The translations under genes and the position numbers were made by a program. From IMG/VR virus record IMGVR_UViG_3300020219_000074, positions 1 through 21,774 of that record: DNA of 21,774 nucleotides. One strand, 5' to 3'. The stretch comes from a virus. This document shows, piece after piece, positions 4,539-20,815 of this stretch. Under the pieces are notes generated by a model, which had not been told where the DNA came from, searched no databases, and was given only the letters and a program-made list of their open reading frames with translations. Numbering within the stretch: the first letter of the stretch is position 1; every line of letters starts with the position of its first letter.

Positions 4539-4588
4539 GAGTAGAGACTCCGTGTTTTAGGGAAGTGGGGTTGGCTTAGGCGTCTGGC

Positions 4589-5146
4589 TTAGACCAGATC
4601 CTTGCCCTTGGTGGGCTTGGAGGGGTCGGGCTTCTTGGTGCCGTCCGTGGTCTCTTCGACCTTACGGGTGGTAGCACCAGTGTCCCGTGCCTGGGAGTGG
4701 TCCTGAACGAAGGCGCCGAGACCCTTGAGGGCGGGGAGCTTGCTATCGAGCTTGCCCATCTCGTCGCGGATCGAATCCGTGATCGAGTCGGGGATGCGCT
4801 TGACGAGCTCTTCGTCCACGTAGGTCTTCAGACCTTCCGCATTGTCGAGCTTGTGGCCCGACGGCTTCTCGCCGTTCAGTGCACGCAGAAGGGCGAGGTG
4901 ATCGCACTTCGTACGGTGCAGCTGCTTCTCGGCGTCCGTGAGCTTGGTCTGGAGAGCGATCGACTCGGCCTTCACCGAATCGTGCGCAGACTGCAGATCA
5001 CGGTTGCGGTCCTGTTCCTTCTGAAGAGACGCGGTCAGGACCTTGACCGTATCCTCGTTGGCGCTGGCTGCGGGTGCCGCGGGCGCCGGTGTAACCGGCG
5101 GGGTTGCCGGAGTCCCGGAGGGCGCGGGCGTCGTGGGTGTCGACAT
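4589..5146 (-). CDS. Probable nested scaffold protein (internal start)
   Basis: An in-frame ATG at 5146 (residue 548 of the protease-scaffold protein) is preceded at 7 bases by GAGGA. It falls exactly at the border between the folded part and the Pro/Ala linker plus coiled coil. Initiation here would give a separate 185-residue scaffold: a disordered Pro/Thr/Ala N terminus, a coiled coil, a helical middle and a Lys/Asp-rich C terminus. Lambda C/Nu3 is the well-known precedent for a scaffold nested in frame in the 3' end of the protease gene. Whether the ribosome uses this start is inferred from the sequence only. Confidence 0.55.
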   Translation of the reverse strand: MSTPTTPAPSGTPATPPVTPAPAAPAASANEDTVKVLTASLQKEQDRNRDLQSAHDSVKAESIALQTKLTDAEKQLHRTKCDHLALLRALNGEKPSGHKLDNAEGLKTYVDEELVKRIPDSITDSIRDEMGKLDSKLPALKGLGAFVQDHSQARDTGATTRKVEETTDGTKKPDPSKPTKGKDLV

Positions 5147-6787
5147 CGTGGTGTCCTCGTTGAGTTCGGGTTCGTGTCCGGCGTCGCGGTCGTTCGAGCC
5201 ACAGCACATCTTGGCGGCCTTTCGGTTGACGGCAATCATGATGCGCTTCTTGGTATCTGCATCACTCTTGTACCGACCGATCAAGCGTCGAGCTGCTGTG
5301 ACATGTTCGCAGTCCGGAACGGGAAAAGTCCGTCCCGGGCCACAGAAGGTGCTGGACTTCAGCTTCTCCCGTCGCTCGGAACTCAGTTTCGCGTCGCTCT
5401 GGATAGAGGCCTCGAACCGGCGAGCCAGCTCGGTGCACTCCTCGAGTGAAGGAATATACATCGCATCTCGGGCCATTGCAACTTCCACATCGTGGATGTG
5501 CTTGTCCCCGAAATCCGCTTCCCTGGTCTCAAGATCCCAGCGATCAGAGTTCAGGTCGTCTACCGTGAAGTCGATGGTATGCCTGTGAGGGTCAATCTTC
5601 ACCTTCTCATCAACCGGGAAAGTCCCATCCGTCCAGCCGGTCACTCGCTTTGTGGCGATATCGACCTCGAGCCAGACGGAGTGCAGGTGCCCATCTGCCT
5701 CTTCGGTCAGACCGGAGAAGTAGAGAGCCTTTCCCTCACCGATTACGCAGACGTCCTTCAGTTCAGAATCAGCCTGGATCAGACCACGCTTCATGAGTCC
5801 GCTGACGATGTGCCCCATGGCCCAGTCGTCACCATCAAGTCCGCTCGAATCCGAGTTCGCGGCCGGCACCGTATTGGTGTTGAGGTCCGGAACCTGAATC
5901 CTGACAGGTAGCTTGATGCCACCGCTTCCACGGCTGGAAATGGCGTCGTTCTCACCCTCCTTGAGGGTGAGGACGGTGCTGTTCCCAGATTCGTCGAAGA
6001 TCGCCAGAACGGGGCTGGTCTTCACTGCGATGACTCCCCTACCAAACTCGAACTCTCGTGCAAGGCGCGCGGAGTCGTAGTGCGCACCATCAACCAGCGC
6101 AGCCTTCGCATCAGACCACTTCATCTCTTCCGCCACGGCCCAGGGCTGCGCAGGGTGGTTCACGACCGAGACCTCTCGGTTGAACTGGGCACCAGTGACG
6201 AGGTAGCACTCCCGCCGTGTTCCGTCCTCGAGCTCGTAGATCTGGCCGACGACGTGGTCGCAGTTCTCCTCGAGTAGGTTCCTCTCGCAGATCGAGCAGC
6301 CGGTGTACGGCGACGTGAAGCTCGTAGAGAACGTGGCATAACGCCCGTCGAGGAACTTCTCCTGGGCGTCCTTGTCCTTGATCGCCAGCTGCAGGAGCGT
6401 GTAGCCAGACCCGAGATTCAGACCGCGTGCGGGGTTCTTCCAGTCGGAGAAGAACTCATCGGTCTTCTTAAGCCTGTGATACGAGGCCGAAACGACACGT
6501 CCGATCGCGGGAAGCTTCTGATCGTGGAACATCAGGACGGGCATGTCGTACGGCGAGCTGCCACCGTTGTCATGCGAGCACCACGTCGGGATCCCCTGCT
6601 CCATGTGGATACCGGGGTAGCAGCGACCGTTCAGCAGGTAGCCGCTGTAGGACGCCTTCACCTTGACGAGGAGCCCGAGGTTCTTCGTCGACTGGGCCGC
6701 ATCCTGAAGGAAGCTGAGAGCATCCTTCTTCAGTGCGGGCTTCTCTACTGTGACCCACGTACGGAACTGGGCCTGGCGATTGCTCAC
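4589..6787 (-). CDS. Prohead protease fused to a scaffold-like C-terminal domain
   Basis: This 732-residue protein has a protease-like N-terminal third. H88 in V-L-M-F-H-D-Q, then the Y-A-T-F-S-T-S-F stretch (S154/S156), then REVSVVNHPAQP near 204-215 match the order His, Ser, E-V-S-x-V-x-x-P-A of phage head-maturation proteases. C164, C167, C176/H178 and C194 form a probable zinc-binding insert. Residues 355-440 carry three H-x-H pairs (367/369, 401/403, 430/432) in a beta-rich section of unknown role. Residues 465-530 resemble a small domain found in other phage protease/scaffold proteins (possibly DUF6582; from memory). From 548 the chain turns Pro/Ala/Thr-rich, then coiled coil (575-625), then acidic/Lys, typical of scaffolds. 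It would cut itself and the capsid arm during maturation. A 4-base ATGA-type overlap joins it to the portal gene. Confidence 0.85.
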   Translation of the reverse strand: MSNRQAQFRTWVTVEKPALKKDALSFLQDAAQSTKNLGLLVKVKASYSGYLLNGRCYPGIHMEQGIPTWCSHDNGGSSPYDMPVLMFHDQKLPAIGRVVSASYHRLKKTDEFFSDWKNPARGLNLGSGYTLLQLAIKDKDAQEKFLDGRYATFSTSFTSPYTGCSICERNLLEENCDHVVGQIYELEDGTRRECYLVTGAQFNREVSVVNHPAQPWAVAEEMKWSDAKAALVDGAHYDSARLAREFEFGRGVIAVKTSPVLAIFDESGNSTVLTLKEGENDAISSRGSGGIKLPVRIQVPDLNTNTVPAANSDSSGLDGDDWAMGHIVSGLMKRGLIQADSELKDVCVIGEGKALYFSGLTEEADGHLHSVWLEVDIATKRVTGWTDGTFPVDEKVKIDPHRHTIDFTVDDLNSDRWDLETREADFGDKHIHDVEVAMARDAMYIPSLEECTELARRFEASIQSDAKLSSERREKLKSSTFCGPGRTFPVPDCEHVTAARRLIGRYKSDADTKKRIMIAVNRKAAKMCCGSNDRDAGHEPELNEDTTMSTPTTPAPSGTPATPPVTPAPAAPAASANEDTVKVLTASLQKEQDRNRDLQSAHDSVKAESIALQTKLTDAEKQLHRTKCDHLALLRALNGEKPSGHKLDNAEGLKTYVDEELVKRIPDSITDSIRDEMGKLDSKLPALKGLGAFVQDHSQARDTGATTRKVEETTDGTKKPDPSKPTKGKDLV
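5154..5158 (-). promoter_or_regulatory. Internal ribosome-binding site of the nested scaffold
   Basis: The minus strand reads GAGGA followed by 7 bases and ATG at 5146. A site of this quality inside a long gene, at a domain border, decides the proposed internal start. Confidence 0.5.
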
Positions 6788-8940
6788 TGGGGCTCCTCCA
6801 GGAAGATTGGGAGGGCTGCATCCTGTAGGCGAGATGTCAGCGAGATCGAGCGAACGATGTCAGGACGCTCCTGCATTTCGCGGATGTCGAGCACTTCAGC
6901 TGTCTCTGATGTTCCGAGCTTCACGTTGTCGTGGCCTGCTGCACGGTACGCCTGGAGGTATCCAACGATCTGAGCTGCACGTCGGATGCGTCCGATCCTA
7001 GCATCCAGAAGGACCCAGGAAGAAGCGAATGCAGCCATCACAGAGCCTACCACGGAAGAGCTCCGTGCAAGTCCTGTGCGTACCTCGATCGACGACTGAA
7101 GCATACAAGCGGCCTGGATCTGCTGCAAGTCCTTCGTTCGGAACCCGAGTAGAAGCTGGTCGACCTGGTGAAGTTCCCGAGCGTTCAGGACCTCTGAGAG
7201 CAGCACTGGAGCGGGCTTCTTGAGCTCGGTGTATGCCTTCGAGATACCGGAACGCCATTCCGTTCGAATGTCGTCCTCGATCATGTTCCCGATGTCGCGG
7301 AGGGCCTGTGTGAAGGCCGGCCGGACGTCCTTCCCGTCCTGCACGTACTGGATCACGGCCTCGGAACACCTATTCCAGATGGTCCTGACCTGGGCTTCCG
7401 AGTCGTTCGCCGGGAGCCTGGGGGCGGTCATGGCCTTACCGTGCTGGTTCGCGGGCCTGGTCTTGTTCCCCAGCATGCCACCCACACCAGCTGCGGACGA
7501 CCCGGTACCTGGCTTCTTGGCGGCGGCAGCCTTGATTGCGGCCTGGGCCTTCGCGAGCGGGATGAGCCACTCGTTCAGGTACAGCCCACCCTCCTCCTCG
7601 GGTGTGAGATCGTCGAGGTGGAGGTAGTCCCGGCGGAACTCGTCCCTCGTGATGCCACCCTGGACGTAGAGCTGCAGGCCGTGGTTCTGCTCCGCGCGCT
7701 CCGCTTCGTCATCGATGGCGGGGAACAGGAAATGGACCCGGTTGTAGTCACTGAGGTTGTAGCCACCCTCCATGACGAGGTGGTCGAAGAAGCGCTCAGT
7801 CACGAAGTCGGAGATGAGCGACTGGATCTCGGTGCACGAGTCCACCAGGATCTGCGAAAGGGTCGTCGCGGTACCACGGTTCGCCGTGTCTCCGCGGCCA
7901 AGGTCCATCATCGAGAGACGGAGGCCAGCAATCACGCGCAGTTCGTAGTGATCGATGAAGGGCTGCAGATCAAGGGCCTCGCCCTCAGCACCGATGATCT
8001 TCACCTCGTGACGCTCAGACGTGACCACGAAGCCTTCCTGCGCGAGCTGCTCCGCATACTGCGCAGCGATCAGGACCTCTGCAACCTGCTGACCGGTGGC
8101 GTGATCCGTGACCTTACCGGCGGGAATCTTCTCCGATCCGACCTTCCAGTGCATCATCGGGAACGCGTACTTGTGAGCGATGTGCTCCGTCACCATCTCG
8201 AGCTTGCGCAGGGCGCGGATATCCTCGAGAGCAGGGATGACGAAAGGCGTTCCAAATGCATGCCCTGACTTCTTCCGCCAGGGAATGTGAACTACGTCGT
8301 GGTGCGGCCACTGCCGCTCCTTGTAGCCCTTCACACGCTGGATGAAGAGTGCCGGGCGACCAGACTTCGTCTGCTTGATCGTGACCGTAGAGGGGTCAGC
8401 GATCGAGACGCCGGCGATCGGATCCCTCTCGCGGCCCCACATACGGGTCCGGACTCCGGAGGATCTCTCGGAGTCCCGGTAGAAGACTATGTAACCGTTC
8501 GATGTCGCGACAATGTTCCTGACGAGCTCGCGAACCATGTCGACGAACGGCTGGTCAGAGATCAGGGCGATCTCGCGAAGCCGGCGCTTCACGTAGGCCA
8601 CGGTCTCAGGGTCTCGCCCCTTCACGAGGAACCCCTGCTTCATGATCAGCTCGACGTGGCGGTCGATCGCAACGGCGAAGTAGGACTCGATGTCCTGGAG
8701 CCGGATGACCTCGGCGAGGTCGTACATCGGCTTGACCTCTGTCGTGTCCTGCTCATAGATCCCCGAGCGGGAGACGGAGCTCTCCGTACCGGGGTACTTG
8801 AGGGTCCGCTCAGGAGGCCGGCGCTTCGTCTTGACGATTTGCTCTACGGCCGACGGAGGCGGGGCCTCGCGCTGGATCGCGAGCTTGAGGTCTTCCAGGG
8901 CAGCACGTACGAAAGCGATGTCACCCTTACGAGCCATCAT
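6784..8940 (-). CDS. Portal protein with an extra C-terminal domain
   Basis: This 718-residue protein would form the dodecameric portal through which DNA enters and leaves the capsid. Residues 70-465 have portal-family texture: Y-F-A-V-A-I-D-R-H-V-E near 87-97, S-N-G-Y-I-V-F-Y-R near 147-155, D-V-V-H-I-P-W near 215-221, then a helical stem (235-265), and E-L-R-V-I-A-G-L near 333-340 followed by SQILVDSCTEIQSLI. A Gly/Pro/Asn linker (476-503) leads to about 210 more helical residues (510-718), which make the protein longer than a typical 450-550-residue portal. I do not recognise that tail; it lacks obvious MuF/gpF signatures. ATG 8940 overlaps the upstream stop (ATGA) and is at once followed by a second ATG; AAGG and GAGG lie just upstream. 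Position between terminase and protease fits the standard head order. Confidence 0.9.
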   Translation of the reverse strand: MMARKGDIAFVRAALEDLKLAIQREAPPPSAVEQIVKTKRRPPERTLKYPGTESSVSRSGIYEQDTTEVKPMYDLAEVIRLQDIESYFAVAIDRHVELIMKQGFLVKGRDPETVAYVKRRLREIALISDQPFVDMVRELVRNIVATSNGYIVFYRDSERSSGVRTRMWGRERDPIAGVSIADPSTVTIKQTKSGRPALFIQRVKGYKERQWPHHDVVHIPWRKKSGHAFGTPFVIPALEDIRALRKLEMVTEHIAHKYAFPMMHWKVGSEKIPAGKVTDHATGQQVAEVLIAAQYAEQLAQEGFVVTSERHEVKIIGAEGEALDLQPFIDHYELRVIAGLRLSMMDLGRGDTANRGTATTLSQILVDSCTEIQSLISDFVTERFFDHLVMEGGYNLSDYNRVHFLFPAIDDEAERAEQNHGLQLYVQGGITRDEFRRDYLHLDDLTPEEEGGLYLNEWLIPLAKAQAAIKAAAAKKPGTGSSAAGVGGMLGNKTRPANQHGKAMTAPRLPANDSEAQVRTIWNRCSEAVIQYVQDGKDVRPAFTQALRDIGNMIEDDIRTEWRSGISKAYTELKKPAPVLLSEVLNARELHQVDQLLLGFRTKDLQQIQAACMLQSSIEVRTGLARSSSVVGSVMAAFASSWVLLDARIGRIRRAAQIVGYLQAYRAAGHDNVKLGTSETAEVLDIREMQERPDIVRSISLTSRLQDAALPIFLEEPQ

Positions 8941-10856
8941 GCCCTCGCCTTGGCGATCGAGTCGAGAAGTTCATCGGGGAGGATACCGCGACAGATGTCT
9001 CTGAAGTTCTTTGCCGGGACCGCGTCACCCGGCCCAGAAATGGTACCAACAGGAGGGATCGAACGCGAACCCTCAGCGCGGAGGACCGGATTTGGGTTCC
9101 GGAAGAACTTCTCGATGACCTCCGGCGGGAGCTGGAGGGGCTTGGGAACCCCATCGTAGACCGTGGGGTCGTCCCCCGGGTTCGGGTCGTTCCCGGTACC
9201 GTCCCCACCGGGGGCATCGTCGGTCGCACAGGCCTCGATCGCCGAGATCAGCCTGTCCAGGATCGAGATGATGGCCTGGAGCCGGCGGGCGTCATACATG
9301 GTGCCCCACCGCCTGTAGACCCCGTCGTGGAGGTCGTAGGCCCTACCGGTGAACTCCCGGACCAGGTGGAAGAGCCTATCCTGGAGCTTACCGATGGCTC
9401 CTACCACATTGACCAGAAGGTCCTCGATCAGGGGGCATGCGAAGAGGTCATCCCAGGTCTGGCTGTCGGTTCCTCCCACCCATCCGATCACGTCGTTCCC
9501 GACCTTGTCGAAGTAGCGCTCGACGAAGGTGATCAGCTCCTGCTGCAGTGCGGAGACGACGATATCCAGGACGTTCATCGGCGTCGCCAGTGTCAGCGAG
9601 ACACCCTTGTTGATCAGGTTCTGGGCGACGGCGAGGACAGACCTGAGCCTTCTCAGGCGGGCGATGTCTTCCTTACCGAGGAACCTACCGATGCAACAGA
9701 GGACGTCGAGCGTGAACCCCGACGTGAGTACGCCGGCGATCGAGGAGAGGCTTCGGTCGATCCCGGCGATCTGGTTCACGATCGCGTCGAAGTGATTCTG
9801 CGACATCGCGATCTCTGCAGGATTCACCTGGGCAACAGTGGCCCGCGGACCAACACCGAGGATTCCCGAGACACCTAGACTGGGGAGAGGTGTCGTGTGC
9901 TGACTCTCGGAAGTGAAGTCGAGGAGAGCCGAGTACTCCTTGGAGTACTGATGAGCGTGGTAGTACGTGATGATCGAGGTTTCGCGGATGATCCTCAGAT
10001 CTCGGTACGCGAGCCAATCCTCATAGCCAGTGGGGTGATTTGCGACATAGGTGTCGCAGTAGTCGATGATGGCCTGCGGATCCGAGGCGCCGATAACATC
10101 GACGAGTTCCCTGTGTAGGTCCGTCTTCGTAAGCCTGCGTGCCCGGTTGATGATGTCGATCGGCGGGACGCCAAGGGCATCCGCGGGCTGCTGCACCGCG
10201 AACATCACGTGGTCTTCCTGAAGTCCGAGGATCAACATCATCGCGGCGATGGCAATAGCCTGGCGCATCTGGATAGGACCGGTCTCTGTTCCGGGCGGCT
10301 CCTTTGCTGCAGTGCACTCCTGGTGCTCTGCGCTGGAGAAGTTCCCCAAGAGCTGATTCAGCAGCATCCAGAGGGCGAACTGTTCGAGACCAAGGAGGAA
10401 CTCGTCCCATGAGGAGAGCCCCTTACCTCCGGTCTTCATGAACCGCTTGATCCTCACGCCGTCGGAGAGAACGTCTCCCGTGAGTTCCCCGACGATCTCG
10501 AACTTCATCTTGCGCGCAAGCTTCACGCGCAAGTCGAGCATGTCCTTGTACATGTCGAAGGAGATCTGGTCTCCTGTAGACCCTTCGTATCTGCGCCGGA
10601 GCGCCTGCCTCACGTTCGTCGCGTCTCTATCCACAGGGATGAACAGCTTCTTCGCCCTGGGTTCCACGGAGCGGATGAGGGCCGTTGCCCGGTTGATCTG
10701 GTAGCCGAGGGCGTCGAAGGCGTCCGTGACCTGCTGCTGCGTGACAATCCCCTCGGGCGGGGCGGAGTCCGCAGGCCTCTGGCTCAGCGGGAGCTCCCGA
10801 AGCTGGCGTTCAGGCTTGGGCTCTGAGGGGCCCGCGTAGAAGGCGTCGTTTGTCAC
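8937..10856 (-). CDS. Large unknown protein between terminase and portal
   Basis: This 639-residue protein is not recognised. It looks mostly alpha-helical, with hydrophobic helices near 155-171 and 197-211, a C-C pair at 387-388, further helical runs at 395-450 and 480-545, an acidic Gly/Asp/Asn/Pro linker at 545-566, and a short C-terminal helical section. The N-terminal 35 residues are Pro-rich and likely disordered. It starts at GTG 10856, overlapping the terminase stop as GTGA, and ends overlapping the portal start as ATGA, so it is translated with both and is probably a structural or packaging partner, for instance a portal- or core-associated protein (inference). The hydrophobic helices are amphipathic rather than clear membrane spans. 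No nuclease, ATPase or lysozyme motif was found. Confidence 0.8.
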   Translation of the reverse strand: MTNDAFYAGPSEPKPERQLRELPLSQRPADSAPPEGIVTQQQVTDAFDALGYQINRATALIRSVEPRAKKLFIPVDRDATNVRQALRRRYEGSTGDQISFDMYKDMLDLRVKLARKMKFEIVGELTGDVLSDGVRIKRFMKTGGKGLSSWDEFLLGLEQFALWMLLNQLLGNFSSAEHQECTAAKEPPGTETGPIQMRQAIAIAAMMLILGLQEDHVMFAVQQPADALGVPPIDIINRARRLTKTDLHRELVDVIGASDPQAIIDYCDTYVANHPTGYEDWLAYRDLRIIRETSIITYYHAHQYSKEYSALLDFTSESQHTTPLPSLGVSGILGVGPRATVAQVNPAEIAMSQNHFDAIVNQIAGIDRSLSSIAGVLTSGFTLDVLCCIGRFLGKEDIARLRRLRSVLAVAQNLINKGVSLTLATPMNVLDIVVSALQQELITFVERYFDKVGNDVIGWVGGTDSQTWDDLFACPLIEDLLVNVVGAIGKLQDRLFHLVREFTGRAYDLHDGVYRRWGTMYDARRLQAIISILDRLISAIEACATDDAPGGDGTGNDPNPGDDPTVYDGVPKPLQLPPEVIEKFFRNPNPVLRAEGSRSIPPVGTISGPGDAVPAKNFRDICRGILPDELLDSIAKARA

Positions 10857-12955
10857 GGGATCGTCCGCCTGGCCGGTGCAAACCTGGGGGAGTGGTAGGG
10901 GAGCCGGCCGGCCGGCTTCTTGCCATTCATGATGTCCATGAAGTCGCTGACACTACCAGTGAAGATCCCGATGTCTTCTCTTCCCCGGGTGTCGACCGTC
11001 CTGGCCGGCATGGTTGACTGATGGAGCTTGTTCAAGGCGGCCATGTTCTGCTGCTGGGTCGCCTGGTCGCCCTCCGTCAGGCCGCTCGGCTTCGGGGTCC
11101 CAAGCGGGGTCGGGCTGTAGTGGATGGATCCGTCGACGTTCTGCTCGCTGATCTCCGAGAAGCGCAGCGCCATCCCGAGGACCGCGAAGCAGAGCGCCAT
11201 GAGCGTGTGCTCGTACCCCTGCGAGTACCGGGGCTGACCCATTGGCGAGTACTTCTCCACCCGGAACTCGCGCATCTGCTGCACGAGACCGATGTTGAGG
11301 AAGGGGATCTCGCTCTCGACGAGCGGCGTGTACGTGTTCTCTTCCTCGGGGAAGAAGATCTTATTTGCATCCACCCAGGACGCGAGGAGGTCGACCATGA
11401 AGGGCTTCGCGGCCTTCTTGATCTCGACTCCGGGATTCCTAGGGTCCTTGAGAACCACGGTCTGGTTGCCGTGGATGGCATGCAGGCGCTCGGTGAACCT
11501 GAGGTTCAGCTCAGGGTGATTGATGTCTTCACGGTACAGGTTTTCGACCTGCACCTCACCGTAGCCCTGGTCGACATAGATGAAGTCAGGCCGCCACTTT
11601 GCGTCCAGTTGCAGTAGTGTCTGGATCGTCTCGTGGTGCAGGAACTCCTGCCGGCGTACGATGATCTTATCCATGACCCGGTAGAAGACGTCCTGCTTGC
11701 CGTCGCCGATCTCCTTGAAGCCACGCTCCAGGACGATCATGTGCGTCCCAGTGATCTTGTTCCAGTCGACACCCAGGACGTACTTGAAGTGGGGAACCCG
11801 CTTCATGCTCGAGTATTCATAATCTCGTACGGACTGGTCGAGCTTCTTCTGGTTGAAGACCCCCTCGGTCGGAGTACCGAACTCCGCCAGGAACTCCCTC
11901 ATGAAGCCACCAGGCGAATAGAGGGCCTTGAACTGCCTCTCTGCGATGTCCGACCACCGCGGGCTCTCCGCAGAGATGTAGTGGAACTCCTTGAACCGCA
12001 TCTTCTTGTCGGTACAGAGCTTCCAGAACTTCGTGCGCGCGCCTGTGGGCGTCGTGCTCATCCAGACCGTGGTGTCCTTCTGTGAAGCCATGACACCGAG
12101 GATCGTCTCGATATCCTCGTCGGCCATGAAGTCCGTCTCGTCGAAGTACAGCTTCTCGGCGCCCTGCGAACGGATCTTGTCCGATCGGGCGCCCGTCTTC
12201 TTACCAGACGAGAAACCACGGCAGACGGCACCGTTGTGGAACTCGATCTCCCACGGCGACTTAGAGTTGCGCTTCAGGGCGGCACGGAGCTTCGGCGATC
12301 GGTTGATGAATATCATCAAGTCGTCGAAGAGCTTCTTCACCTGCACCTCGTAAGGGCAGACGATCAGAATCTCGTACCGGTCCTTGTCCTTCCCGTCCTT
12401 CGTAAACATCGAGAAGAGAACCTCTACCTCGAGGTCTGTCGACTTTCCGATACGGCGCCCGCCGCGGACTGCCTTCCACTGGGCAGTGCAGAGAAGCATC
12501 TCCTGCTGGTACCAGTCGAGATGTAGTCCGAGCTCCACCCTTGCCCACTCGATCGGGCTCATGGAGACGAGGAAGTAGTCACGGTCTGCAGCTGTGTCGG
12601 GGATCAGGCCCGCCTGTACGTACTCTTCGACCTTCTCGGGCGGGTACTCCTTGAGGATGTCCGATCTGTCGCCCTTGCAGATGATCGGCCAGCCGTTGTC
12701 CTTGTAGTCGGCAGGCTTGAAGATGTTCTTCTGTGCGAGGCTGATGTAGTACTTCTGGCAACGCGTGCAGAAGTGCTCTGCGGGACCAGTGACAGTGTCT
12801 GGGCCCCCAGGGATCGCAGAGGGCGTACGTGTCCCGAACGGCATGTACCCCCGGGCCTCGTAGTCGAGCTCGGGATAGTACTTCTGCTCTGACAGGATCT
12901 CGGGGAGGTCCCGCGGGTCCATAGTGCCAGGAAGATTGGCCTTCAGTTCGTTCAT
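10853..12955 (-). CDS. terL: Terminase large subunit (ATPase-nuclease)
   Basis: This 700-residue protein drives ATP-dependent packaging and cuts the genome concatemer. Walker A is GGRRIGKST (165-173), Walker B is K-L-Y-F-D-E-T-D (268-275, D272/E273), and the coupling motif is M-S-T-T (299-302). The nuclease domain shows V-L-G-V-D-W (D397) and I-Y-V-D-Q-G-Y-G (D462). The third acidic position is less clear, probably around Y-E-H-T-L-M-A-L (581-588). An N-terminal extension of about 130 residues holds C63, C66 and C93, which may bind zinc. The last 90 residues are Gln/Pro/Ser-rich. Start ATG 12955 overlaps the preceding stop as ATGA with only weak GGA upstream, so translation is likely coupled. 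No recognised small terminase subunit is seen in the window. Confidence 0.97.
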   Translation of the reverse strand: MNELKANLPGTMDPRDLPEILSEQKYYPELDYEARGYMPFGTRTPSAIPGGPDTVTGPAEHFCTRCQKYYISLAQKNIFKPADYKDNGWPIICKGDRSDILKEYPPEKVEEYVQAGLIPDTAADRDYFLVSMSPIEWARVELGLHLDWYQQEMLLCTAQWKAVRGGRRIGKSTDLEVEVLFSMFTKDGKDKDRYEILIVCPYEVQVKKLFDDLMIFINRSPKLRAALKRNSKSPWEIEFHNGAVCRGFSSGKKTGARSDKIRSQGAEKLYFDETDFMADEDIETILGVMASQKDTTVWMSTTPTGARTKFWKLCTDKKMRFKEFHYISAESPRWSDIAERQFKALYSPGGFMREFLAEFGTPTEGVFNQKKLDQSVRDYEYSSMKRVPHFKYVLGVDWNKITGTHMIVLERGFKEIGDGKQDVFYRVMDKIIVRRQEFLHHETIQTLLQLDAKWRPDFIYVDQGYGEVQVENLYREDINHPELNLRFTERLHAIHGNQTVVLKDPRNPGVEIKKAAKPFMVDLLASWVDANKIFFPEEENTYTPLVESEIPFLNIGLVQQMREFRVEKYSPMGQPRYSQGYEHTLMALCFAVLGMALRFSEISEQNVDGSIHYSPTPLGTPKPSGLTEGDQATQQQNMAALNKLHQSTMPARTVDTRGREDIGIFTGSVSDFMDIMNGKKPAGRLPYHSPRFAPARRTIP

Positions 12956-13578
12956 CGTTCCATGTGGACGAAGGAGGCTTCGTTCCCGAGCGCTGCACGT
13001 GTCGAGAGCTGCGTGTTGTGAATGGCCTGGATCGCGCGCTGGCGCTGAGTCTGTGCATACCTGGTATCGACGAAGGCCCCACCGGTCTCGAGCTCTCGAC
13101 GACTGTTCGTGGTCTTCTTGGGCTCGTAGTTGAGGATTGCATCACCAAGCATCCCACCGAGCGCACCGCCCATCTCTACGGCAGCGTACATCATGCCGAA
13201 CCGTGAGAAGCCCGCGCCGAGCCTCCCGATACCGATGCGGTGTGCGGCCTTCCTACCAAAGGCGGCCTCGATCGTGGGCCCGCCACCACGTTGCATGAAC
13301 CCCTTGTTTGACACCCCGCGGACCCAGTTGCCGAAATGCCCCGCAGACGTACCACCGGTAAGCGCACGTACGTCGTTCAGCATCGCGAGATGACCGCAGC
13401 CCCCGGTCGTCACGGACTTGAGCATCTGTGACTTGTTCAGCATCCGGGGAATGAGGAAAAACTCCGCGGCCGCGGTCAGACCAATCCCGGTCCCGCTCAT
13501 GAAGAACGAGCTCAGGTCGGGGAGGAACTGCGAGTGGTGGCTCGGCTGCTGTTCGTAGATGTCGTAGGGACCGGGCAT
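12952..13578 (-). CDS. Hydrophobic Gly/Ala-rich protein upstream of terminase
   Basis: This 208-residue protein has no recognised family. Two Gly/Ala-rich hydrophobic stretches, near residues 24-45 and 118-147, could insert in a membrane or line a channel. The segment between is basic and Gly-rich, and the last 50 residues are polar and helical. The N terminus (G-P-Y-D-I-Y-E-Q-Q, residues 3-11) resembles G-Y-D-N-Y-V-G-Q-Q in the dual-nuclease protein at 15712-18177. With the 175- and 352-residue proteins it forms a group of similar composition placed before the terminase, so I suggest a virion or ejected protein (inference). ATG 13578 has AGGTGA 4 bases upstream, and its stop overlaps the terminase start. 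Confidence 0.8.
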   Translation of the reverse strand: MPGPYDIYEQQPSHHSQFLPDLSSFFMSGTGIGLTAAAEFFLIPRMLNKSQMLKSVTTGGCGHLAMLNDVRALTGGTSAGHFGNWVRGVSNKGFMQRGGGPTIEAAFGRKAAHRIGIGRLGAGFSRFGMMYAAVEMGGALGGMLGDAILNYEPKKTTNSRRELETGGAFVDTRYAQTQRQRAIQAIHNTQLSTRAALGNEASFVHMER

Positions 13579-13582
13579 GGTG

Positions 13583-13792
13583 TCACCTGCTGGGCTTGAC
13601 GTAGAGGGTGAACCCGTGGGCGGCGGTCTGTCCGGCGGGCACTATCTTCACACAGCGTACCTCAACAGTACCGTTCACGAACGTCCTCTTCTGCGTCGGC
13701 GCCGCGCAGAAGGGGCACTTCTCCGGAATCGTGTGCGAAGCACGTGCTTCAGCATCCGGGCTTTCGCGAACTTCTCCTTCTTGCAGGACCAT
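13583..13792 (-). CDS. Small Cys-containing protein, possible zinc ribbon remnant
   Basis: This 69-residue frame has C-P-F-C at 26-29 and a single Cys in V-R-C-V near residue 47, a partial zinc-ribbon pattern (three cysteines, not four). Its middle and end (T-F-V-N-G-T-V-E-V-R-C, then F-T-L-Y-V-K-P) have natural protein composition, while the HNH frame that overlaps it over 13675-13792 turns into poly-Arg there, so I believe this frame is the genuine one in the overlap. ATG 13792 is the first start after an in-frame TAG; AGGAG is 12 bases upstream, rather far. Its TGA ends 4 bases before the next start, within that gene's ribosome site. Function unknown. Confidence 0.6.
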   Translation of the reverse strand: MVLQEGEVRESPDAEARASHTIPEKCPFCAAPTQKRTFVNGTVEVRCVKIVPAGQTAAHGFTLYVKPSR

Positions 13793-14076
13793 GACTTTTT
13801 CTGGCTCCTAAGTAGCCGCTGAAAGAAGAGGACGAACCTCTCTTCCTTGCCGGTTACGTGTTTGTGATGCTCTGTACAGAGAGTGATCCCGTTGTTGACC
13901 CTAAGCCTGAGTTCGGGGTCGTTCTTCCAGGTCCGTATATGATGGGCTTCGATCTTTCTAAAGGGGAATGTGCGGACTCCGAGACCGCACCCAGGCCATT
14001 GGCAGCGCCACTCGTCACGTGCGTAGACGACCTTTCGCCAGGCGATCAGCTCTGGCGTTTGCTTTCGCCACCCCAC
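13675..14076 (-). CDS. HNH endonuclease, 5' end disrupted
   Basis: The frame codes an HNH nuclease core: R-C-Q-W-P-G-C (C25, C30), then K-I-E-A-H-H-I (H45/H46), N-N-G-I-T-L-C-T-E-H-H (N62, C67, H70). The two Cys pairs hold structural zinc and the beta-beta-alpha core nicks or cuts DNA. HNH proteins encoded beside terminase genes are known partners in DNA packaging and cos cleavage (HK97 gp74 is the studied case), so a packaging role is more likely than a homing role here. The annotated GTG at 14076 has no ribosome site. A strong one serves ATG 14125, in another frame, and one base removed from the GGGG at 14071-14074 would join that start to the HNH frame. The C-terminal 35-40 residues, Lys/Arg-rich, overlap the next gene. 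Confidence 0.8.
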   Translation of the reverse strand: MGWRKQTPELIAWRKVVYARDEWRCQWPGCGLGVRTFPFRKIEAHHIRTWKNDPELRLRVNNGITLCTEHHKHVTGKEERFVLFFQRLLRSQKKSWSCKKEKFAKARMLKHVLRTRFRRSAPSARRRRRRGRS

Positions 14077-14125
14077 TGGCAGCTGGCTTGGGCTTAGGCT
14101 TGGGCTTGGACTTCTTGCGCTTCAT
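14015..14125 (-). CDS. 36-codon Lys/Pro-rich ORF, probable true N terminus of the HNH gene
   Basis: ATG 14125 overlaps the TAA of the 352-residue gene and is served by AAGGAGG at a spacing of 8, one of the best ribosome sites in the window. In its own frame it yields MKRKKSKPKPKPKPAASG and then 18 unremarkable residues before TGA at 14015. If the GGGG at 14071-14074 had one base fewer, or the ribosome shifted +1 there, the reading would pass straight into G-W-R-K-Q-T-P-E-L and the HNH core, giving a basic DNA-binding N terminus. It is therefore either a frameshifted gene start, a leader peptide, or a sequence error. Confidence 0.55.
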   Translation of the reverse strand: MKRKKSKPKPKPKPAASGVAKANARADRLAKGRLRT

Positions 14126-15183
14126 TAGGGCATCCTCCTTGAATGGTTCTGGTGGAGCATCAGGGTGAGAGCAGGACCGTAGTTTGACGCAGGTCCTCGA
14201 CGCATGGCCGAGATGCCGCCCCCGAAGTTCGAGGGGTTCGGCGACATGCCACCCCCGACCCAGGACTTACTCTCGTTCTTGTGCCTGGCGTATGACTGGG
14301 CGACTGCAGCGCCTGCGCCAAGGGTGGCGAAGCCGTACATCGTAGGTGCCGCTCTCTGCATGAAGTTGGAGCCACCGAGCTTCTTGGCTCCAGGGATCCA
14401 GCTGAACGGCCTCTGGCGGAGGAAGCCGCCGATGGAAGGTGTCAACTGAGCGGCCGCAGCGGGACGGCTTTCGAAGAAGCGAGCGGCGCCCGTGTGAAGT
14501 CTGGTACCAGTCCTGCTCCATGCTTCGCCGGCGGACTTCATACCCATCTTTCCCATGAGTGCGCCAGGTCCCGTGAACCCAACGCCTCGAGCAACGGCGC
14601 TCAGTGCACCGTACCGACCGAACAGAGCTCCACCGACAAAGTTCGTTCCCACGCGGGCGGCAGACACCGCGGCGTATGGCCAGCCGGCAGCCATCTTGGC
14701 AACGCCCTTTGCCGCGCCCCAGGCAGCCTTGCCTGGCAGCTTCACAGCTGCAGCAGCAAGGTGGTCGAGCTTGCCCTCGACCCACTTGTAGGCACCCTGG
14801 AACCTCAAGGGATTACCGGTAGCTGCACCAGCGCCGTAGAGAGCGGTGCCTGTTGCACCACGGGCAAGATGCCTGACAGCGTTCGCCTTGAAGCCGAAGC
14901 TCAGTACCTGGGCACCGAACCTGGCCGCAGGCGATGCCTCCTCACCCATGCGCGTCTCGTCCAGGACGTAGTCGATCCCGGATCCGATCGCGTAGTACGG
15001 CAGCGTCTGCTTCAGGAGCGCTCCGCCGAGCGTCTTGATCCCAGACTTGCCCATGATCTTGCCAACGGGGTTGAACTCACTCAACCCACGAAGGGATCCT
15101 AGGAAGTCGTGTTTCGCGACTTGAGTACCGACCTGCGCACGCCCGCCGAAGAAAGCACGACCGATGGTCTTGAGAGCACCCAT
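14125..15183 (-). CDS. Gly/Ala-rich hydrophobic protein, candidate ejection protein
   Basis: This 352-residue protein has no recognised family. It is rich in Gly, Ala and basic residues, with repeated weakly hydrophobic stretches, including Y-Y-A-I-G-S-G-I near 63-70, A-A-A-V-K-L-P-G-K-A-A-W near 144-155 and a C-terminal segment at about 281-298. After that segment come H-K-N-E-S and a Gly/Asn tail with ISAMRRGPASNYGP (324-337), comparable to a region after the membrane segment of the dual-nuclease protein. Such composition is seen in phage internal and ejected proteins and in membrane-active proteins; here it is an inference. ATG 15183 shares its first base with the upstream TAA, with no strong ribosome site, so it is probably translated by coupling. 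Confidence 0.8.
   Translation of the reverse strand: MGALKTIGRAFFGGRAQVGTQVAKHDFLGSLRGLSEFNPVGKIMGKSGIKTLGGALLKQTLPYYAIGSGIDYVLDETRMGEEASPAARFGAQVLSFGFKANAVRHLARGATGTALYGAGAATGNPLRFQGAYKWVEGKLDHLAAAAVKLPGKAAWGAAKGVAKMAAGWPYAAVSAARVGTNFVGGALFGRYGALSAVARGVGFTGPGALMGKMGMKSAGEAWSRTGTRLHTGAARFFESRPAAAAQLTPSIGGFLRQRPFSWIPGAKKLGGSNFMQRAAPTMYGFATLGAGAAVAQSYARHKNESKSWVGGGMSPNPSNFGGGISAMRRGPASNYGPALTLMLHQNHSRRMP
14134..14140 (-). promoter_or_regulatory. Strong ribosome-binding site before ATG 14125
   Basis: The minus strand reads AAGGAGG, then ATGCCCTA, then ATG. The site lies inside the last codons of the upstream gene and points to 14125, not to the GTG at 14076, as the real initiation codon for the HNH gene. 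Confidence 0.8.
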
Positions 15184-15710
15184 TAGAAGGGACCCATGTT
15201 GTTACCGGAGCGCATCATGTTTAGACCACCCCAGGCGGCGTAGGCCGCGCCAAGACCATGGTGCACCCCAGAGCCGAGCACAGCGGTTGTGGTAGCAAAC
15301 GCACCAACCTGTAGAGCACCACTCGCTATCGAGTCAAGCGGGTTCCCTGGGGCGACGAGACCCGAGACTCCAGCGACACCGGCCAGTGCGGGGATCCCGA
15401 CACGCATCGCGAGACGCTTCTGTCTCACGGAGGATGCAAGACCTTCGCGCGCCTCATCGATGTTGTAGCCCTGGAACCAGTCGCCGATCGTGTACTTACC
15501 TCGGTTCTTGATGGCTCCACGGATGGCGCCGAGGATCTCACCGCCGGCTCCGATCGCTCCACCGCTCTTGGCGGCAGTGGCGATCTTGGTGGCCGTCTCG
15601 CCGGCAGCAAGGTCGATCGGGGACAGGTGAGCGAAGGCCCCAGCAACCCAGTTCCCGAGCTTCTTCCCGAAGAAGTCTGGCATGCCGGGGATGTTCTGGA
15701 CGCTTGCCAT
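15183..15710 (-). CDS. Small Gly/Ala-rich hydrophobic protein
   Basis: This 175-residue protein has no recognised family. Hydrophobic Gly/Ala stretches lie near 53-66, 103-120 and 130-160, separated by a polar segment (K-Y-T-I-G-D-W-F-Q-G-Y-N-I-D-E-A-R). The last residues, MMRSGNNMGPF, resemble the MR-x-G...N-x-G-P tail of the 352-residue neighbour. Start ATG 15710 follows the stop of the nuclease gene by one base, with GGGGGCC just upstream. Together with the two neighbouring genes it probably forms one translational unit, and I read it as a virion-internal or membrane-active protein; a holin is less likely given its place in the packaging region. Confidence 0.8.
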   Translation of the reverse strand: MASVQNIPGMPDFFGKKLGNWVAGAFAHLSPIDLAAGETATKIATAAKSGGAIGAGGEILGAIRGAIKNRGKYTIGDWFQGYNIDEAREGLASSVRQKRLAMRVGIPALAGVAGVSGLVAPGNPLDSIASGALQVGAFATTTAVLGSGVHHGLGAAYAAWGGLNMMRSGNNMGPF

Positions 15711-15711: not shown

Positions 15712-18177
15712 TTAGGCCCCCATTATCGCATTTCTTTCGGCGTGTGACACCATCCCGTGGGAGTGCCGACCGCGGGATGTCCTAGGCATGCCAGGGAAGC
15801 GATGTAGCTGGGTAGCGTGATCACGGATGGCATGACCGATGGCATCATCAGAGAGCTGCTGGACGAACCCAGCATACCTGCTTTCCCGGAACCTCCGAGC
15901 GGCCAATCCGCCGTACCCCACTTGCTGTTCCCGATGCTCTGGGTTCCCGTCGTTCTGCAGATCGTCTTCGCCCGTCAGGGTAGCGACAGTCCCGAGGGCA
16001 GACCACATGAAGGGATCGTTACCCCTGTCGTCCGAGGCGAAGAAGTTCTGGACCATAGAGAGGACGTTTTCGGCCCCGACCTTCATCCTGTGCATCAGGT
16101 AGCTTCCGGTCTCGGATGCGTCGAAGTACGGGGTGGGGATGTACGCAAGGGCGCCGCTGTGTCCCTTGCGTACGATCTCCGAGTTGACGCTCATGCCGTT
16201 GAAGTCGACGTACAGGAGTTCGCGTCCGTACGTGTCCATCGAGTCGTTCATCTGGGGACGGATCCAGACTTCCTGCCCATGCAGAAGGTCCTTCAGGAAC
16301 TTCGAGGCTTCTCGTCCGCCCTTCTGGACCAGCTTGTGTCTGTTCACGGTTTCAGGCGTGTCGACACCCGCCAGACGACCAGTGACCAGCCTGTTTCCAC
16401 GGTAGAACTGAATGGTGTCGCCGTCGAGCACCTTCGTGATTTTCACACGCTGTGGCTGCTGCTGCTGGCCAACATAGTTGTCGTAACCAGAACCGAACGC
16501 GGAGATGTTCGAGAACGGAAGGTCAGAGGCGTTGATACCTTCGATCGTGTCGTACTGGCCCTTGGGCCGCCTCATACCTTCGATCTCGGGCGGCTTCTCT
16601 GTCTGGTTGTGCTTACCGATCATGTAGGCCCCGGCGGCCGCAAGGCCTGCCATCAGCCACACGTTCGTATGTCCCGCCTTCTTGTAGGCGTTCTTCATCG
16701 CGTTCCCGCCACCGTGTAGGACCTTGGACAGCTCGTCGGCGGCAGATCTCTGTGGCGCGTTCTTTCCCTGCAGGATGTCCTGGAACAGCTCACCAACTCG
16801 GCGCTCGGAGGCCTCTCTCTGTTCAACCTGGTCGATCTTGGTCCAGCGCTCGAAGAGACCGGAGTCCCTGCGGATACGATCCAGCTCAACAGCCGTCCGC
16901 TCCATCAGGGTACGGTCAGCGTCGGCCGAGTGGGCCTCCGTCATGAGCTTCGTGATCTCGCTGGCAGCACCTTCAGAGAGATCGAGCTCCTTCGCATGCT
17001 TGACCAGGGCACCAGAGACGTCCTGCAGCTTGCCACCACCGATGAAACTGAAGGCCGAGAACTTGCCGGCCGCGGGCGCATAGCGCAGTGTCGAGTTCAG
17101 AGTGCGCGTGTCACCGAAGATGTGGGCGTGCCCGAGAGTCGAGCCGTACATCTCTCCGACGACATCGTTTAGGGTCTTCTCGCCATAGATGAGGGTGCTC
17201 GAGTTCCTGTGTCCGTACTCGACGAACTCCTTGAACGTCTCCCAGTCGTGCACCCCGGAGAGCCTCTTGGTCAGGTCCTCCGCTACGGCCTGGGCCTGAG
17301 CACTTCCCGCGCGCTGCGAATTGGCCCACTTCGTTGCACGGTCATGGAAACTCTTCAGGCCCTTGTTGTTTCCATGGACGTCGTCCATGAAGTCGCGGAG
17401 ACCTTTGTGCTCCACGATCGCGCCAAGACTGCGAGCCTTATCCGGCGAGACGGAGCTGATCCCAATGTCGACCGCAGCCTGGGCCGCAGCGCGGTTTGTC
17501 ATCACCGGCGTGTAGTTCGACTTCAGCATCGCCTCGAAGCGCATGGCGTGCAGGCCTTCCGCCATCTCGCGGACCTGCATCGTGTTCGACTTCAGGAGGC
17601 TGTCGATCTCAGTACTGAACCCGTGCCGGCGCATCTCGCGGAACAGGGTCGGCATGTCGTAGCCGACGTTCCACGCGCCAAGGGAGACCTTCCCTCCAGC
17701 GGTGGCGATACCAGACCACTCGTTCACGAGTCCCTGATAGACGTCCCGCTGCGCAAGAACTCCTTCACCCTTCAGGACGTGCTTGGCATGCCGGCGGAAG
17801 ACTCCATCGATGATAGAACCACGGGTGCGCAGCGACGGGTCCCAGCGCGGAGGAGCACTGGGGTTGTAGGGCGAACGAGAGTTCGCGTCGCGGACAACCT
17901 CGTTGAAGAGGGAGTCGGGAAGAATTCCCTCATTTAGCATCTCCTCCGTGATCTGATACCTGTGCAGCAGATCAGGAGTGATGAGGTCCGTGTATGCGTT
18001 GACATGGGCCTTCTTGCCCGCACGCCCGTACGCGATCGACGAGATCCCGATCGGTTCGGAGAGAGGTCGGCCCTCGTATCGCCTCCTCGTGAACGACCGG
18101 GTTCGTAGACCCTGCGTCTCGACGTCGAACGTGAACTCGTGGACTTCCCCGGGTGCTCCGAACGGGTTGCCGTTCAT
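15712..18177 (-). CDS. DnaQ-like exonuclease / staphylococcal-nuclease fusion protein
   Basis: This 821-residue protein combines two nucleases. The N-terminal domain starts F-T-F-D-V-E-T (D18, E20), the first motif of DEDD 3'-5' exonucleases. L-G-A-W-N-V-G-Y-D-M-P-T-L (N170, D174) is the second. The third motif is not clear: D237 and D301 are candidates, without the usual His or Tyr. A long helical region (250-500) follows, then a Gly/Ala membrane-like segment at about 506-520. The SNase domain begins near 577: V-L-D-G-D-T-I (D587), R-L-A-G-V-D-T-P-E (R601, D606, E609) and D-T-Y-G-R (R652) match all catalytic residues of Staphylococcus nuclease. The last 150 residues are basic/His-rich. TGATG couples its ATG to the upstream gene; GAAGG is 6 bases away. 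It could degrade host or competing DNA on delivery, or process phage ends; either is inferred. Confidence 0.9.
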   Translation of the reverse strand: MNGNPFGAPGEVHEFTFDVETQGLRTRSFTRRRYEGRPLSEPIGISSIAYGRAGKKAHVNAYTDLITPDLLHRYQITEEMLNEGILPDSLFNEVVRDANSRSPYNPSAPPRWDPSLRTRGSIIDGVFRRHAKHVLKGEGVLAQRDVYQGLVNEWSGIATAGGKVSLGAWNVGYDMPTLFREMRRHGFSTEIDSLLKSNTMQVREMAEGLHAMRFEAMLKSNYTPVMTNRAAAQAAVDIGISSVSPDKARSLGAIVEHKGLRDFMDDVHGNNKGLKSFHDRATKWANSQRAGSAQAQAVAEDLTKRLSGVHDWETFKEFVEYGHRNSSTLIYGEKTLNDVVGEMYGSTLGHAHIFGDTRTLNSTLRYAPAAGKFSAFSFIGGGKLQDVSGALVKHAKELDLSEGAASEITKLMTEAHSADADRTLMERTAVELDRIRRDSGLFERWTKIDQVEQREASERRVGELFQDILQGKNAPQRSAADELSKVLHGGGNAMKNAYKKAGHTNVWLMAGLAAAGAYMIGKHNQTEKPPEIEGMRRPKGQYDTIEGINASDLPFSNISAFGSGYDNYVGQQQQPQRVKITKVLDGDTIQFYRGNRLVTGRLAGVDTPETVNRHKLVQKGGREASKFLKDLLHGQEVWIRPQMNDSMDTYGRELLYVDFNGMSVNSEIVRKGHSGALAYIPTPYFDASETGSYLMHRMKVGAENVLSMVQNFFASDDRGNDPFMWSALGTVATLTGEDDLQNDGNPEHREQQVGYGGLAARRFRESRYAGFVQQLSDDAIGHAIRDHATQLHRFPGMPRTSRGRHSHGMVSHAERNAIMGA

Positions 18178-19022
18178 CAGGAGCCTTCAGGCAGGAAGAT
18201 CGGGATCTCGAGCTTCTTCCCCGTACCGTGCTGTGCGATGCCCTGCTCCTGGCGGATCTTCGCCGCGGCCGCATGTGTCGCCGCGGTCTTCGTCCCGGGG
18301 TCGTTCGACTCCAGTCGACCACTGTCGGCCTTCGCCCTGGGAGTCGCGAGCAGCTGAGCGAGCAGCTTCATGCGGGCCTGGGCGATGCGAAGCAACAGGT
18401 CGAATCCGGGGTAGAGCTTCGTCGCCTCGATCGGCTGGCCCTGGAAGCTGAAGCCGATGTTCATCGTGCGCTCGATCGCAGCATCACGAGCCGTGTCCTG
18501 GGCGACGCGGCTCTGGAGGATCAGCATGCCGACGAGCTCGTCGACGATAGACCTGATCGTCGCGGAGTGCTCCCCAGTGTCGTCGTAGTCGATCGAGGCC
18601 AGGAAGTCGTCGCGCCACTGGTCGGCGAGGTTCTGCTCGAGAGGACAGGGCTTCTCGAACGGAAGGGGGATGTTCGCCTTATGGAGGTCGCAGTACCCCA
18701 GGAACTTGCACTCGAGCCCGCGGCAGATCAGGGGGATGGTCCCGCCGATCGGCGCCTTGACACGCCGGCGTTGGCCAGCGGTGACCGTGGCCTTCTGGAG
18801 CTCGGTGAGGGCGTCTGCTCCCGCGATGTACTCGAGGACGTTCCTCTCGGCTACCTGGCTAGGCTTCCGACGAGGCAGCTGCTTCACGCCTTCGAGTGAG
18901 GAAGGAGTGGCGGGAACCAGCGGGCTCGACGTATCGAGGGGCTCGGGAGCCTTAGGCGCCAGCGCCGGAGCGGGGTCCGACGTCGTAACCTGCGGCCCGA
19001 AGGTGCTGTGCGAACTGCTCAC
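18177..19022 (-). CDS. Four-cysteine protein of unknown function
   Basis: This 281-residue protein is not recognised. A disordered Pro/Ala/Ser N terminus (1-50) is followed by a helical part and a compact Cys cluster, C100, C105, C111 and C126, separated by 4, 5 and 14 residues, that could hold zinc or an iron-sulfur cluster. The rest (135-235) is helical, and the tail is Lys/Gln/Ala-rich. The GTG at 19022 has GGAG 7 bases upstream, and this start makes the gene overlap its neighbour by 71 bases. A later GTG at 18887 (residue 46), with GAAGG close by, would remove the overlap and most of the disordered segment. It ends on the start of the dual-nuclease gene, so the two products may work together. 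A DNA- or RNA-binding role is possible but not shown. Confidence 0.75.
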   Translation of the reverse strand: MSSSHSTFGPQVTTSDPAPALAPKAPEPLDTSSPLVPATPSSLEGVKQLPRRKPSQVAERNVLEYIAGADALTELQKATVTAGQRRRVKAPIGGTIPLICRGLECKFLGYCDLHKANIPLPFEKPCPLEQNLADQWRDDFLASIDYDDTGEHSATIRSIVDELVGMLILQSRVAQDTARDAAIERTMNIGFSFQGQPIEATKLYPGFDLLLRIAQARMKLLAQLLATPRAKADSGRLESNDPGTKTAATHAAAAKIRQEQGIAQHGTGKKLEIPIFLPEGS

Positions 19023-20230: not shown

Positions 20231-20815
20231 CTACCGGCGGTCTGCGACGATGATGCTCACGTCGACGGCGAACACAAGAACGCCATCGATGCTTCCAGTC
20301 TTGTCGTGATGCGGAATTCTGTCTTCGAGCATCCAGATCCTCGTGCCATCCGAACGAAGATGTTCGTGTAGCTCGCCTTGCTTCGGGATCCCGGTCTGAA
20401 TCACCTGCGCGTCCAACATGTCTCTGCGCTCGTGGTCCCTGAAGATCTCTCGGGCGTTCCTGCCCGTGATCTCATCGAGGGCGAGCATCAGTTCAGCTTG
20501 CTTGTTCGCCTTCACGATATTCCCATGCGAGTCCTTGAGCATGACTGCGGCTGGGATCATGTCGAACAAGTGAGATAGTTGAACGTCGTAAGGATACGGT
20601 CCCTCTACCGGAGGGACTGAGAACGCAAGCTCACGATCCACCCTGCGAAGGGCGTCAAGGTCGGGGTTCGGCACGACGAGCTCCGATGGAATGTAGTGCA
20701 CGGGACGCGTCTGCGTGCTCTGGCTCAGTCCGGAGACGCTCTGACTGGCCGACAGCCGCGCCCGTGCGAACGCAAGATTACTGCCAAATGTCATCCCGCA
20801 CAAGCGATTCGGCAC
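20231..20815 (-). CDS. Stand-alone PAS-domain protein
   Basis: This 194-residue protein (GTG 20815; alternative ATG 20794) has a disordered or helical N-terminal 75 residues, then a single PAS domain: L-S-H-L-F-D-M-I-P-A-A-V-M-L-K-D-S-H-G-N-I, N-K-Q-A-E-L-M-L, I-T-G-R-N-A-R-E-I-F, and a closing strand pair with R-S-D-G-T-R-I-W-M and V-D-G-type turn D-G-V-L-V-F-A-V-D-V-S. PAS domains sense ligands, redox or light and mediate dimerisation, usually joined to a kinase, GGDEF or HTH output domain. Here no output domain exists: the PAS domain ends at the C terminus. It may modulate or mimic a host sensor, or be a regulator of phage genes. Neither start has a clear ribosome site; GAAGAAG lies upstream of the GTG. 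A repeat-rich leader precedes it. Confidence 0.85.
   Translation of the reverse strand: MPNRLCGMTFGSNLAFARARLSASQSVSGLSQSTQTRPVHYIPSELVVPNPDLDALRRVDRELAFSVPPVEGPYPYDVQLSHLFDMIPAAVMLKDSHGNIVKANKQAELMLALDEITGRNAREIFRDHERRDMLDAQVIQTGIPKQGELHEHLRSDGTRIWMLEDRIPHHDKTGSIDGVLVFAVDVSIIVADRR

Follow-up and report, generated by a model that had tools for sequence, protein, structure and literature searches.

The carriage of a staphylococcal-type nuclease (SNase) domain by a virion protein is already known in the phage lineage considered here, in which the BtI1 baseplate hub carries such a domain (PMC2147016). Nucleases of the T4 gp4 type are also known: a review of jumbo phages describes the TnsA-like "head completion protein" as associated with the virion and the non-specific DNase of T4 gp4 as needed for packaging (PMC7824862). 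In addition, large multidomain phage proteins, the polyvalent proteins, have been described and are thought to enter the cell with the DNA (PMC5512222). We analyzed a protein, named NUC, that joins a predicted DEDDh exonuclease fold to an SNase domain and is encoded in a viral record of 21,774 bases (hereafter the window, i.e., the whole stretch of DNA analyzed), with a GC content of about 62% and with all its identified genes on the minus strand. The late genes on which the analysis relies are the following.

18177-19022, minus strand: g15, 281 aa, the conserved marker gene immediately upstream of the slot that NUC occupies (profile matches in the window and 25 other loci)
15712-18177, minus strand: NUC, the dual-nuclease protein, 821 aa (open reading frame list, ATG start)
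15183-15710, minus strand: g13, 175 aa, Gly/Ala-rich, with the conserved C-terminus ...GLNMMRxGNNMGPF
14125-15183, minus strand: g12, 352 aa, Gly/Ala-rich
13675-14076, minus strand: g11, HNH endonuclease (phrog_119, E=3.3e-13)
12952-13578, minus strand: g9, 208 aa, with the conserved C-terminus TQRQRAIQAIHNxQLxxRAALGNEA
10853-12955, minus strand: terminase large subunit, TerL (phrog_2, E=1.3e-33; PF03237, E=1.3e-9)
6784-8940, minus strand: portal protein (phrog_9232, E=3.6e-35)
2089-3516, minus strand: major capsid protein (phrog_3922, E=2.7e-14)

The genes run in the order g15, NUC, g13, g12, HNH, g10, g9, terminase, g7, portal, g5, g4 and capsid, g5 having a weak prohead-protease match. NUC overlaps the end of g15 by one base and stops 1 nt short of g13, g13 and g12 again overlap by one base, and all gaps in the late-gene stretch are of 50 bases or less. 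NUC is a translationally coupled member of a late head/packaging operon. The first-pass annotation had placed the gene beside packaging genes and not replication genes, among hydrophobic neighbors, and both points hold, as the operon contains terminase, portal and capsid and the Gly/Ala-rich g13 and g12 adjoin NUC. Two other identities were rejected, that of a spurious reading frame (the GC3 of 0.77 matches the neighboring genes) and that of a replication exonuclease (wrong operon). Since the kin of the terminase, portal and capsid proteins are those of Moorella phage MTATph1, Bacillus phage KLEB27-3 and Acinetobacter phage ME3, the window is, judged by this kinship, a fragment of a 0305phi8-36/ME3-like jumbo myophage.

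Several features of the neighboring genes were also observed. The bodies of g9, g12 and g13 are poorly conserved and their C-terminal peptides strongly conserved (TQRQRAIQAIHNxxLxxRAALGNEA for g9, GATGDLVFALxxxRxG for the g12-type proteins of relatives and GLNMMRxGNNMGPF for g13); these peptides look like assembly or targeting tags. The g15 protein shows a multi-cysteine pattern, CxxxxCxxxxxC...CPxE, and is perhaps a metal-binding protein, its position suggesting a role in packaging. The HNH endonuclease gene that separates g12 from g9 in the window has counterparts in the related loci L005, L006, L011 and L012, and was not detected in L008 or L013. Intein-like large insertions are present in the terminase genes of L013 (8024-11209), L003 and L004, and an intein-like end (...ANGIISHN|S) in a g12-type protein of L042 (6829-8391), just before the conserved C-terminal tag. 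Upstream of the late operon, at 20231-20815 of the window, a PAS-domain protein is encoded (PF08448, E=1.8e-10), which is unusual among structural genes.

Relatives were reached through alignments of TerL, g13 and NUC, the terminase alignment search giving 49 related viral loci. Single-protein scans of viral contigs with NUC or TerL, a scan of genome contigs, tblastn with NUC residues 1-569 against 50,697 phage records and tblastn with the L062, L081 and L013 relatives gave no match, 0305phi8-36 itself being absent from the phage collection searched. NUC homologues were found upstream of the terminase in L013 and L008 and in the truncated loci L006 and L010. The L062 homologue, of 1840 aa, occupies the same slot and has its own SNase (PF00565, E=1.3e-11). 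A whole-record SNase search recovered proteins of about 1,300 residues upstream of the terminase in G010, G011, G012, G015 and G020 (clade 3), with DEDDh motifs I, II and III, a Gly/Ala helix and an SNase domain (E 4e-12 to 4e-13); where read (L033, L079), they directly precede g12-like and g9-like genes. The window family and clade 3 showed no significant similarity in the DEDD domain by hhalign; layout and place are what they have in common. The clade 3 profile matched ME3 gp011 (E=5.9e-6), a protein of 529 residues with DEDD motifs and a C-terminal Gly/Ala helix, without SNase, whose N-terminus matches the DNA-polymerase exonuclease family phrog_192 (E=4.7e-5). Besides the window, two clades that have diverged widely from it thus show the DEDD-helix-SNase layout at the equivalent place. 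The claim of the first-pass annotation that two unlike nucleases share one chain stands: the domains belong to different superfamilies, and their layout is repeated in divergent phages. By its sequence relatives, the family is known so far only from jumbo phages of the 0305phi8-36/ME3 lineage that have not been cultured. Within NUC, the following parts were delimited.

17353-18153, minus strand: predicted DEDDh exonuclease-fold domain, about residues 9-275 (VIA-align of two AlphaFold models)
18118-18126, minus strand: DEDD motif I, D18-V-E20 (FDVETQGL), kept in L013, L008, L062, clade 3 and ME3
17656-17670, minus strand: DEDD motif II, N170-xxx-D174 (WNVGYD), with both N and D unchanged in five homologues
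17392-17409, minus strand: DEDDh motif III, H257-KGLR-D262, aligned with HSAMRD of L013
16615-16665, minus strand: Gly/Ala-rich hydrophobic helix, residues 505-521 (Kyte-Doolittle 1.31; helix at 506-526 in the model)
16480-16572, minus strand: post-helix motif RRPxxxYDTIEGI...FGSGYD, residues 536-566 (P538, G547 and F561-G564 invariant in six homologues)
16129-16449, minus strand: SNase domain, residues 577-683 (PF00565, E=1.7e-12; PDB nuclease chains)
15715-16107, minus strand: conserved C-terminal tail, residues 691-821 (38% identical to the L006 tail, z=22.6)

The SNase domain (PF00565) was the sole domain of NUC in a Pfam scan at E<=1, with 48.2 bits against a curated cut-off of 21 bits (E=1.7e-12), and staphylococcal nuclease chains from the PDB matched residues 578-683 with E about 1e-13 to 1e-12. 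Alignment to the PDB nucleases located D585/D587, R601, D606, E609 and R652 of NUC, and D587, R601, D606, E609 and R652 correspond to D21, R35, D40, E43 and R87 of the nuclease; the active site had been called complete, and all five residues cited lie where they had been placed. On these matches, the SNase identity of the C-terminal part is beyond doubt.

The N-terminal part of NUC required structural comparison. Neither Pfam nor PHROG matched the DEDD part of the window protein itself, and hhalign of this part to E. coli DnaQ, RNase T and ExoX gave 3.3%, with no significant similarity. In a homologue-based AlphaFold model, built from six sequences and with a mean pLDDT of only 46.9, VIA-align of residues 8-219 retrieved a Plex9.1/TREX1 homologue (Z 9.0), ExoI (8.9), RNase T (7.8) and TREX2 (7.5), values below 8 being ones that may reflect a common arrangement, and further DEDD exonucleases (Cap18, Orn, DnaQ). 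The DEDD domain folded alone (pLDDT 55.7) retrieved the same families at Z of 6.6 or less over residues 8-301, and nearly all rows for both models were DEDD exonucleases. Foldseek returned nothing below E 0.48 for the long model and no DEDD protein among the matches listed for the domain model. D18, E20, N170 and D174 of motifs I and II are at the positions given in the first-pass annotation, and H257/D262 adds motif III to them. Among remote relatives, the motif III counterparts are HLAFSD, HQALSD and HLALMD in clade 3, HTALSD in ME3 and also HKALSD. In shuffled NUC, the ordered motifs I-II-III occurred in 0/20,000 sequences and motif I alone in 1.6%; the pattern was composed after viewing the sequence, so the homologues are the better evidence. 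Given the uniform VIA-align list, the motifs and the homologues, the N-terminal part of NUC is predicted to be a DEDD exonuclease fold with DEDDh motifs I, II and III. The structure prediction advised for this part agrees with its DEDD assignment, DEDD exonucleases dominating the lists obtained with these low-pLDDT models.

Conservation of the motifs bears on whether the domain is an active enzyme. In clade 3 and ME3 the Asp of motif II is replaced by Glu. The Asp of motif III is missing in L008, where it is Ser, and in L010, and motif III was looked for in L062 and not found; exonuclease activity is therefore probably not universal in the family. Such losses are what would be expected if the main task of the DEDD part were to bind DNA ends or to serve as a structural element, and if the second nuclease were an incidental decoration with a minor role in infection, and the slot of most relatives, which has no recognizable nuclease, agrees with this. 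Against it, the window, L062 and clade 3 all retain the SNase active-site residues, and the residues of the DEDDh motifs do not vary among four distinct clade 3 proteins, so that we consider this explanation improbable.

The segment described as membrane-like in the first-pass annotation is a Gly/Ala helix whose position is conserved among homologues, but its hydrophobicity is not outstanding: the 17-residue Kyte-Doolittle maximum of NUC, 1.31 at residues 505-521, is below the peaks of two soluble proteins of the same phage, TerL (1.78) and the portal (1.76). The Gly/Ala helices of the neighbors g13 and g9 peak at 1.89 and 1.33. A membrane span by residues 505-521 is possible. The first-pass annotation proposed a weapon with one domain on each side of a membrane or capsid boundary; this interpretation is supported in part, by the architecture and the operon, the two-sided topology and the weapon role being conjectural. 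NUC could be pictured as a nuclease anchored by this helix at the inner membrane that, late in infection and without entering the virion, degrades the DNA of the host or superinfecting DNA. We give this little credence: the presence of such helices in NUC, g13 and g9 would suit it, but the NUC helix does not exceed the TerL and portal peaks, the operon is structural and the hub SNase of sister phages, presented below, points to the particle.

The comparison of NUC with L006 indicated which part of the protein varies. Identity is 39% over the left flank (residues 391-575; z=53) and 38% over the tail (residues 691-821; z=22.6), whereas nothing in L006 corresponds to the SNase stretch (z=-0.8). 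In its place, L006, L013 and L010 have a RecB/Cas4-type nuclease of the PD-(D/E)XK class (phrog_1706, E 1.9e-15 to 7.6e-12), whose sequences show GxxxH, D, ExK and QxxxY. The exchange between SNase and RecB/Cas4-type nuclease is, from these alignments, a clean domain swap. The RecB/Cas4 carriers are nearer relatives of the window, and the SNase carriers L062 and clade 3 are very divergent. The L008 homologue, at 3982-6771, is without a second nuclease and has an N-terminal DUF4406 domain (E=1.2e-11), which is nucleoside deoxyribosyltransferase-like. As deduced from the homologues, the family is built of a DEDDh fold, a long helical region, the Gly/Ala helix, an exchangeable nuclease and the tail, and the second nuclease is by the same evidence an exchangeable payload on a head/packaging-cassette protein. 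In G016 (L083, 3071-8659), a non-hub protein of 1863 residues combines a RecB/Cas4-type nuclease (E=3.2e-17) with an SNase-like region whose match is weak and whose sequence is degenerate; it appears to be a parallel two-nuclease giant protein.

We surveyed the slot, taken as the gene after g15, in 25 loci besides the window. In most of them it encodes a protein in which no nuclease is recognizable; this protein is often short, contains a hydrophobic Gly/Ala helix and ends in a C-terminal tail that recurs among the loci. Since the slot elsewhere is mostly occupied by such a helix-bearing protein, the nucleases look like an added payload, and we infer that the NUC versions are enzymes grafted onto a helix-bearing structural/packaging core. 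In L012, the slot holds an endolysin fused to phrog_3108 (1251-2417, between g15 and g9). ME3 has a T4 gp4-type nuclease, gp010 (phrog_218, E=1.3e-20; TnsA_N PF08722, E=5.1e-14), between the g15 homologue and the DEDD and helix protein gp011; among 20 records this gp4 homologue was found only in ME3, and phrog_218 had no match in the window record. An SNase was observed on the giant baseplate hub of ME3 (gp037), MTATph1 (CDS0032), KLEB27-3 (weak) and G003, and in all four the slot protein has no fused nuclease. Conversely, G012, G015, G020, G022 and G023 have a recognizable hub without SNase and a nuclease fused to the slot protein. This distribution is suggestive of mutual exclusion between hub SNase and slot nuclease, across few independent lineages (clade 3 counting as one) and with some records being fragments. 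An SNase tree gave no resolution on whether slot and hub SNases have a single origin.

These observations bear on whether NUC serves packaging. A packaging or head-completion nuclease would work at the packaging vertex with terminase and portal, its SNase (or the PD-(D/E)XK substitute) and its DEDDh domain trimming, debranching or clearing DNA ends like T4 Gp4. NUC is directly upstream of the terminase, portal and capsid genes in one coupled operon, the gp4-type head-closure nuclease of ME3 occupies the equivalent position, and swapping of unrelated folds suits a demand for a generic DNase. However, the gp4 homologue was found in ME3 alone among the 20 records, many relatives have no recognizable slot nuclease, L008 has no second nuclease, and DUF4406 and an endolysin in the slot fit poorly. 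Moreover, since ME3 keeps both the gp4-type nuclease and the hub SNase, the job of the SNase probably differs from that of gp4. We regard a packaging function as somewhat less likely than action at entry, but as a serious rival to it, in view of the operon and of the need for the T4 gp4 nuclease in packaging.

The explanation that we prefer, tentatively and with somewhat less than even confidence, is that NUC rides in the virion and that its nucleases act on DNA at phage entry. It has a slight edge over packaging for these reasons: the payload differs from phage to phage and may be missing, in relatives it is found on the tail hub, and in ME3 it occurs together with a gp4-type nuclease. NUC would be held in the virion through the helix and tail, near the head/portal end; at entry, the DEDDh domain would act on 3' ends and the SNase would make endonucleolytic cuts, in host, plasmid, rival or defense-generated DNA. 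In sister phages, the SNase is carried on the baseplate hub instead. The late operon with its 1-nt overlaps and gaps, the recurrence of the layout in the slot, the clean swap and the payload-like variation (DUF4406 added in L008, endolysin in the L012 slot) speak for action at entry. We infer the presence of NUC in the virion from the place of its gene and from the fact that relatives have the SNase on the hub; virion proteomics for MTATph1, KLEB27-3, ME3 or PBAB25 was not found in the literature searched. On the other side, the hydrophobicity of the helix is marginal, some members may have an inactive DEDD domain, and a nuclease packed with the genome would have to be restrained. Staphylococcal-type SNases require calcium, which is scarce in the cytoplasm. 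This need could keep the NUC SNase idle until the particle exits the cell, an idea weakened by the occurrence of RecB-type substitutes. More generally, and a little more guardedly still, we propose that in 0305phi8-36/ME3-like jumbo phages a head/packaging-cassette protein, or alternatively the tail hub, may be a virion-borne carrier of a kind not described before, bearing nucleases that replace one another although their folds are unrelated and that are delivered to DNA, or act on it, during infection, with the built-in DEDDh domain finishing the cut ends.

A swappable nuclease payload would be linked to packaging-adjacent genes across very diverged jumbo phages. Acinetobacter phage ME3, with gp010, gp011 and gp037, offers a cultured test case for why virions carry nucleases, and the question addressed is whether virion nucleases serve head finishing or the fate of DNA on entry. 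The domain-swap map also provides an annotation rule for this gene, which receives its label in public tools from the SNase part alone. The first-pass annotation did not recognize NUC as a standard phage gene, and indeed it is not among the standard annotated ones; a DEDDh-helix-SNase protein beside the terminase, its recurrence in three groups and the SNase/RecB exchange had no description in the literature searched.

Compared with known systems, NUC resembles polyvalent proteins as a large multidomain phage protein with exchangeable enzyme domains, here DEDDh and SNase, but the text describing them (PMC5512222) makes no mention of SNase, DnaQ or transmembrane segments, and the Pfam scan at E<=1 found none of their signature domains (e.g., ArdC-N) in NUC. 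With the DEDDh exonucleases (TREX1/2, RNase T, ExoI, DnaQ, T4 DexA) it appears to share the fold of residues 8-301 and motifs I-III; it differs by long insertions, by the lack of significant profile similarity and by the fused helical region, helix and second nuclease. Its SNase has all the catalytic residues of the PF00565 family, which includes SPbeta YokF, but phage SNases of the YokF type are separate genes in another context, whereas this one makes up the C-terminal portion of a late protein of 821 aa. The hub SNases (BtI1, ME3 gp037, MTATph1 CDS0032) belong to the same lineage and are likewise fused to a large late protein, their carrier being instead a tail hub with peptidase/lysin domains, no DEDD noted and another operon position. 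Finally, the T4 Gp4/TnsA-like nuclease (phrog_218, PF08722) is also a generic nuclease encoded by a late morphogenesis gene, in an equivalent position in ME3, but it has a TnsA-like PD-(D/E)XK fold, whereas the nucleases of NUC and its relatives are SNase, DEDDh or RecB-like and are fused in a large helix-bearing protein.
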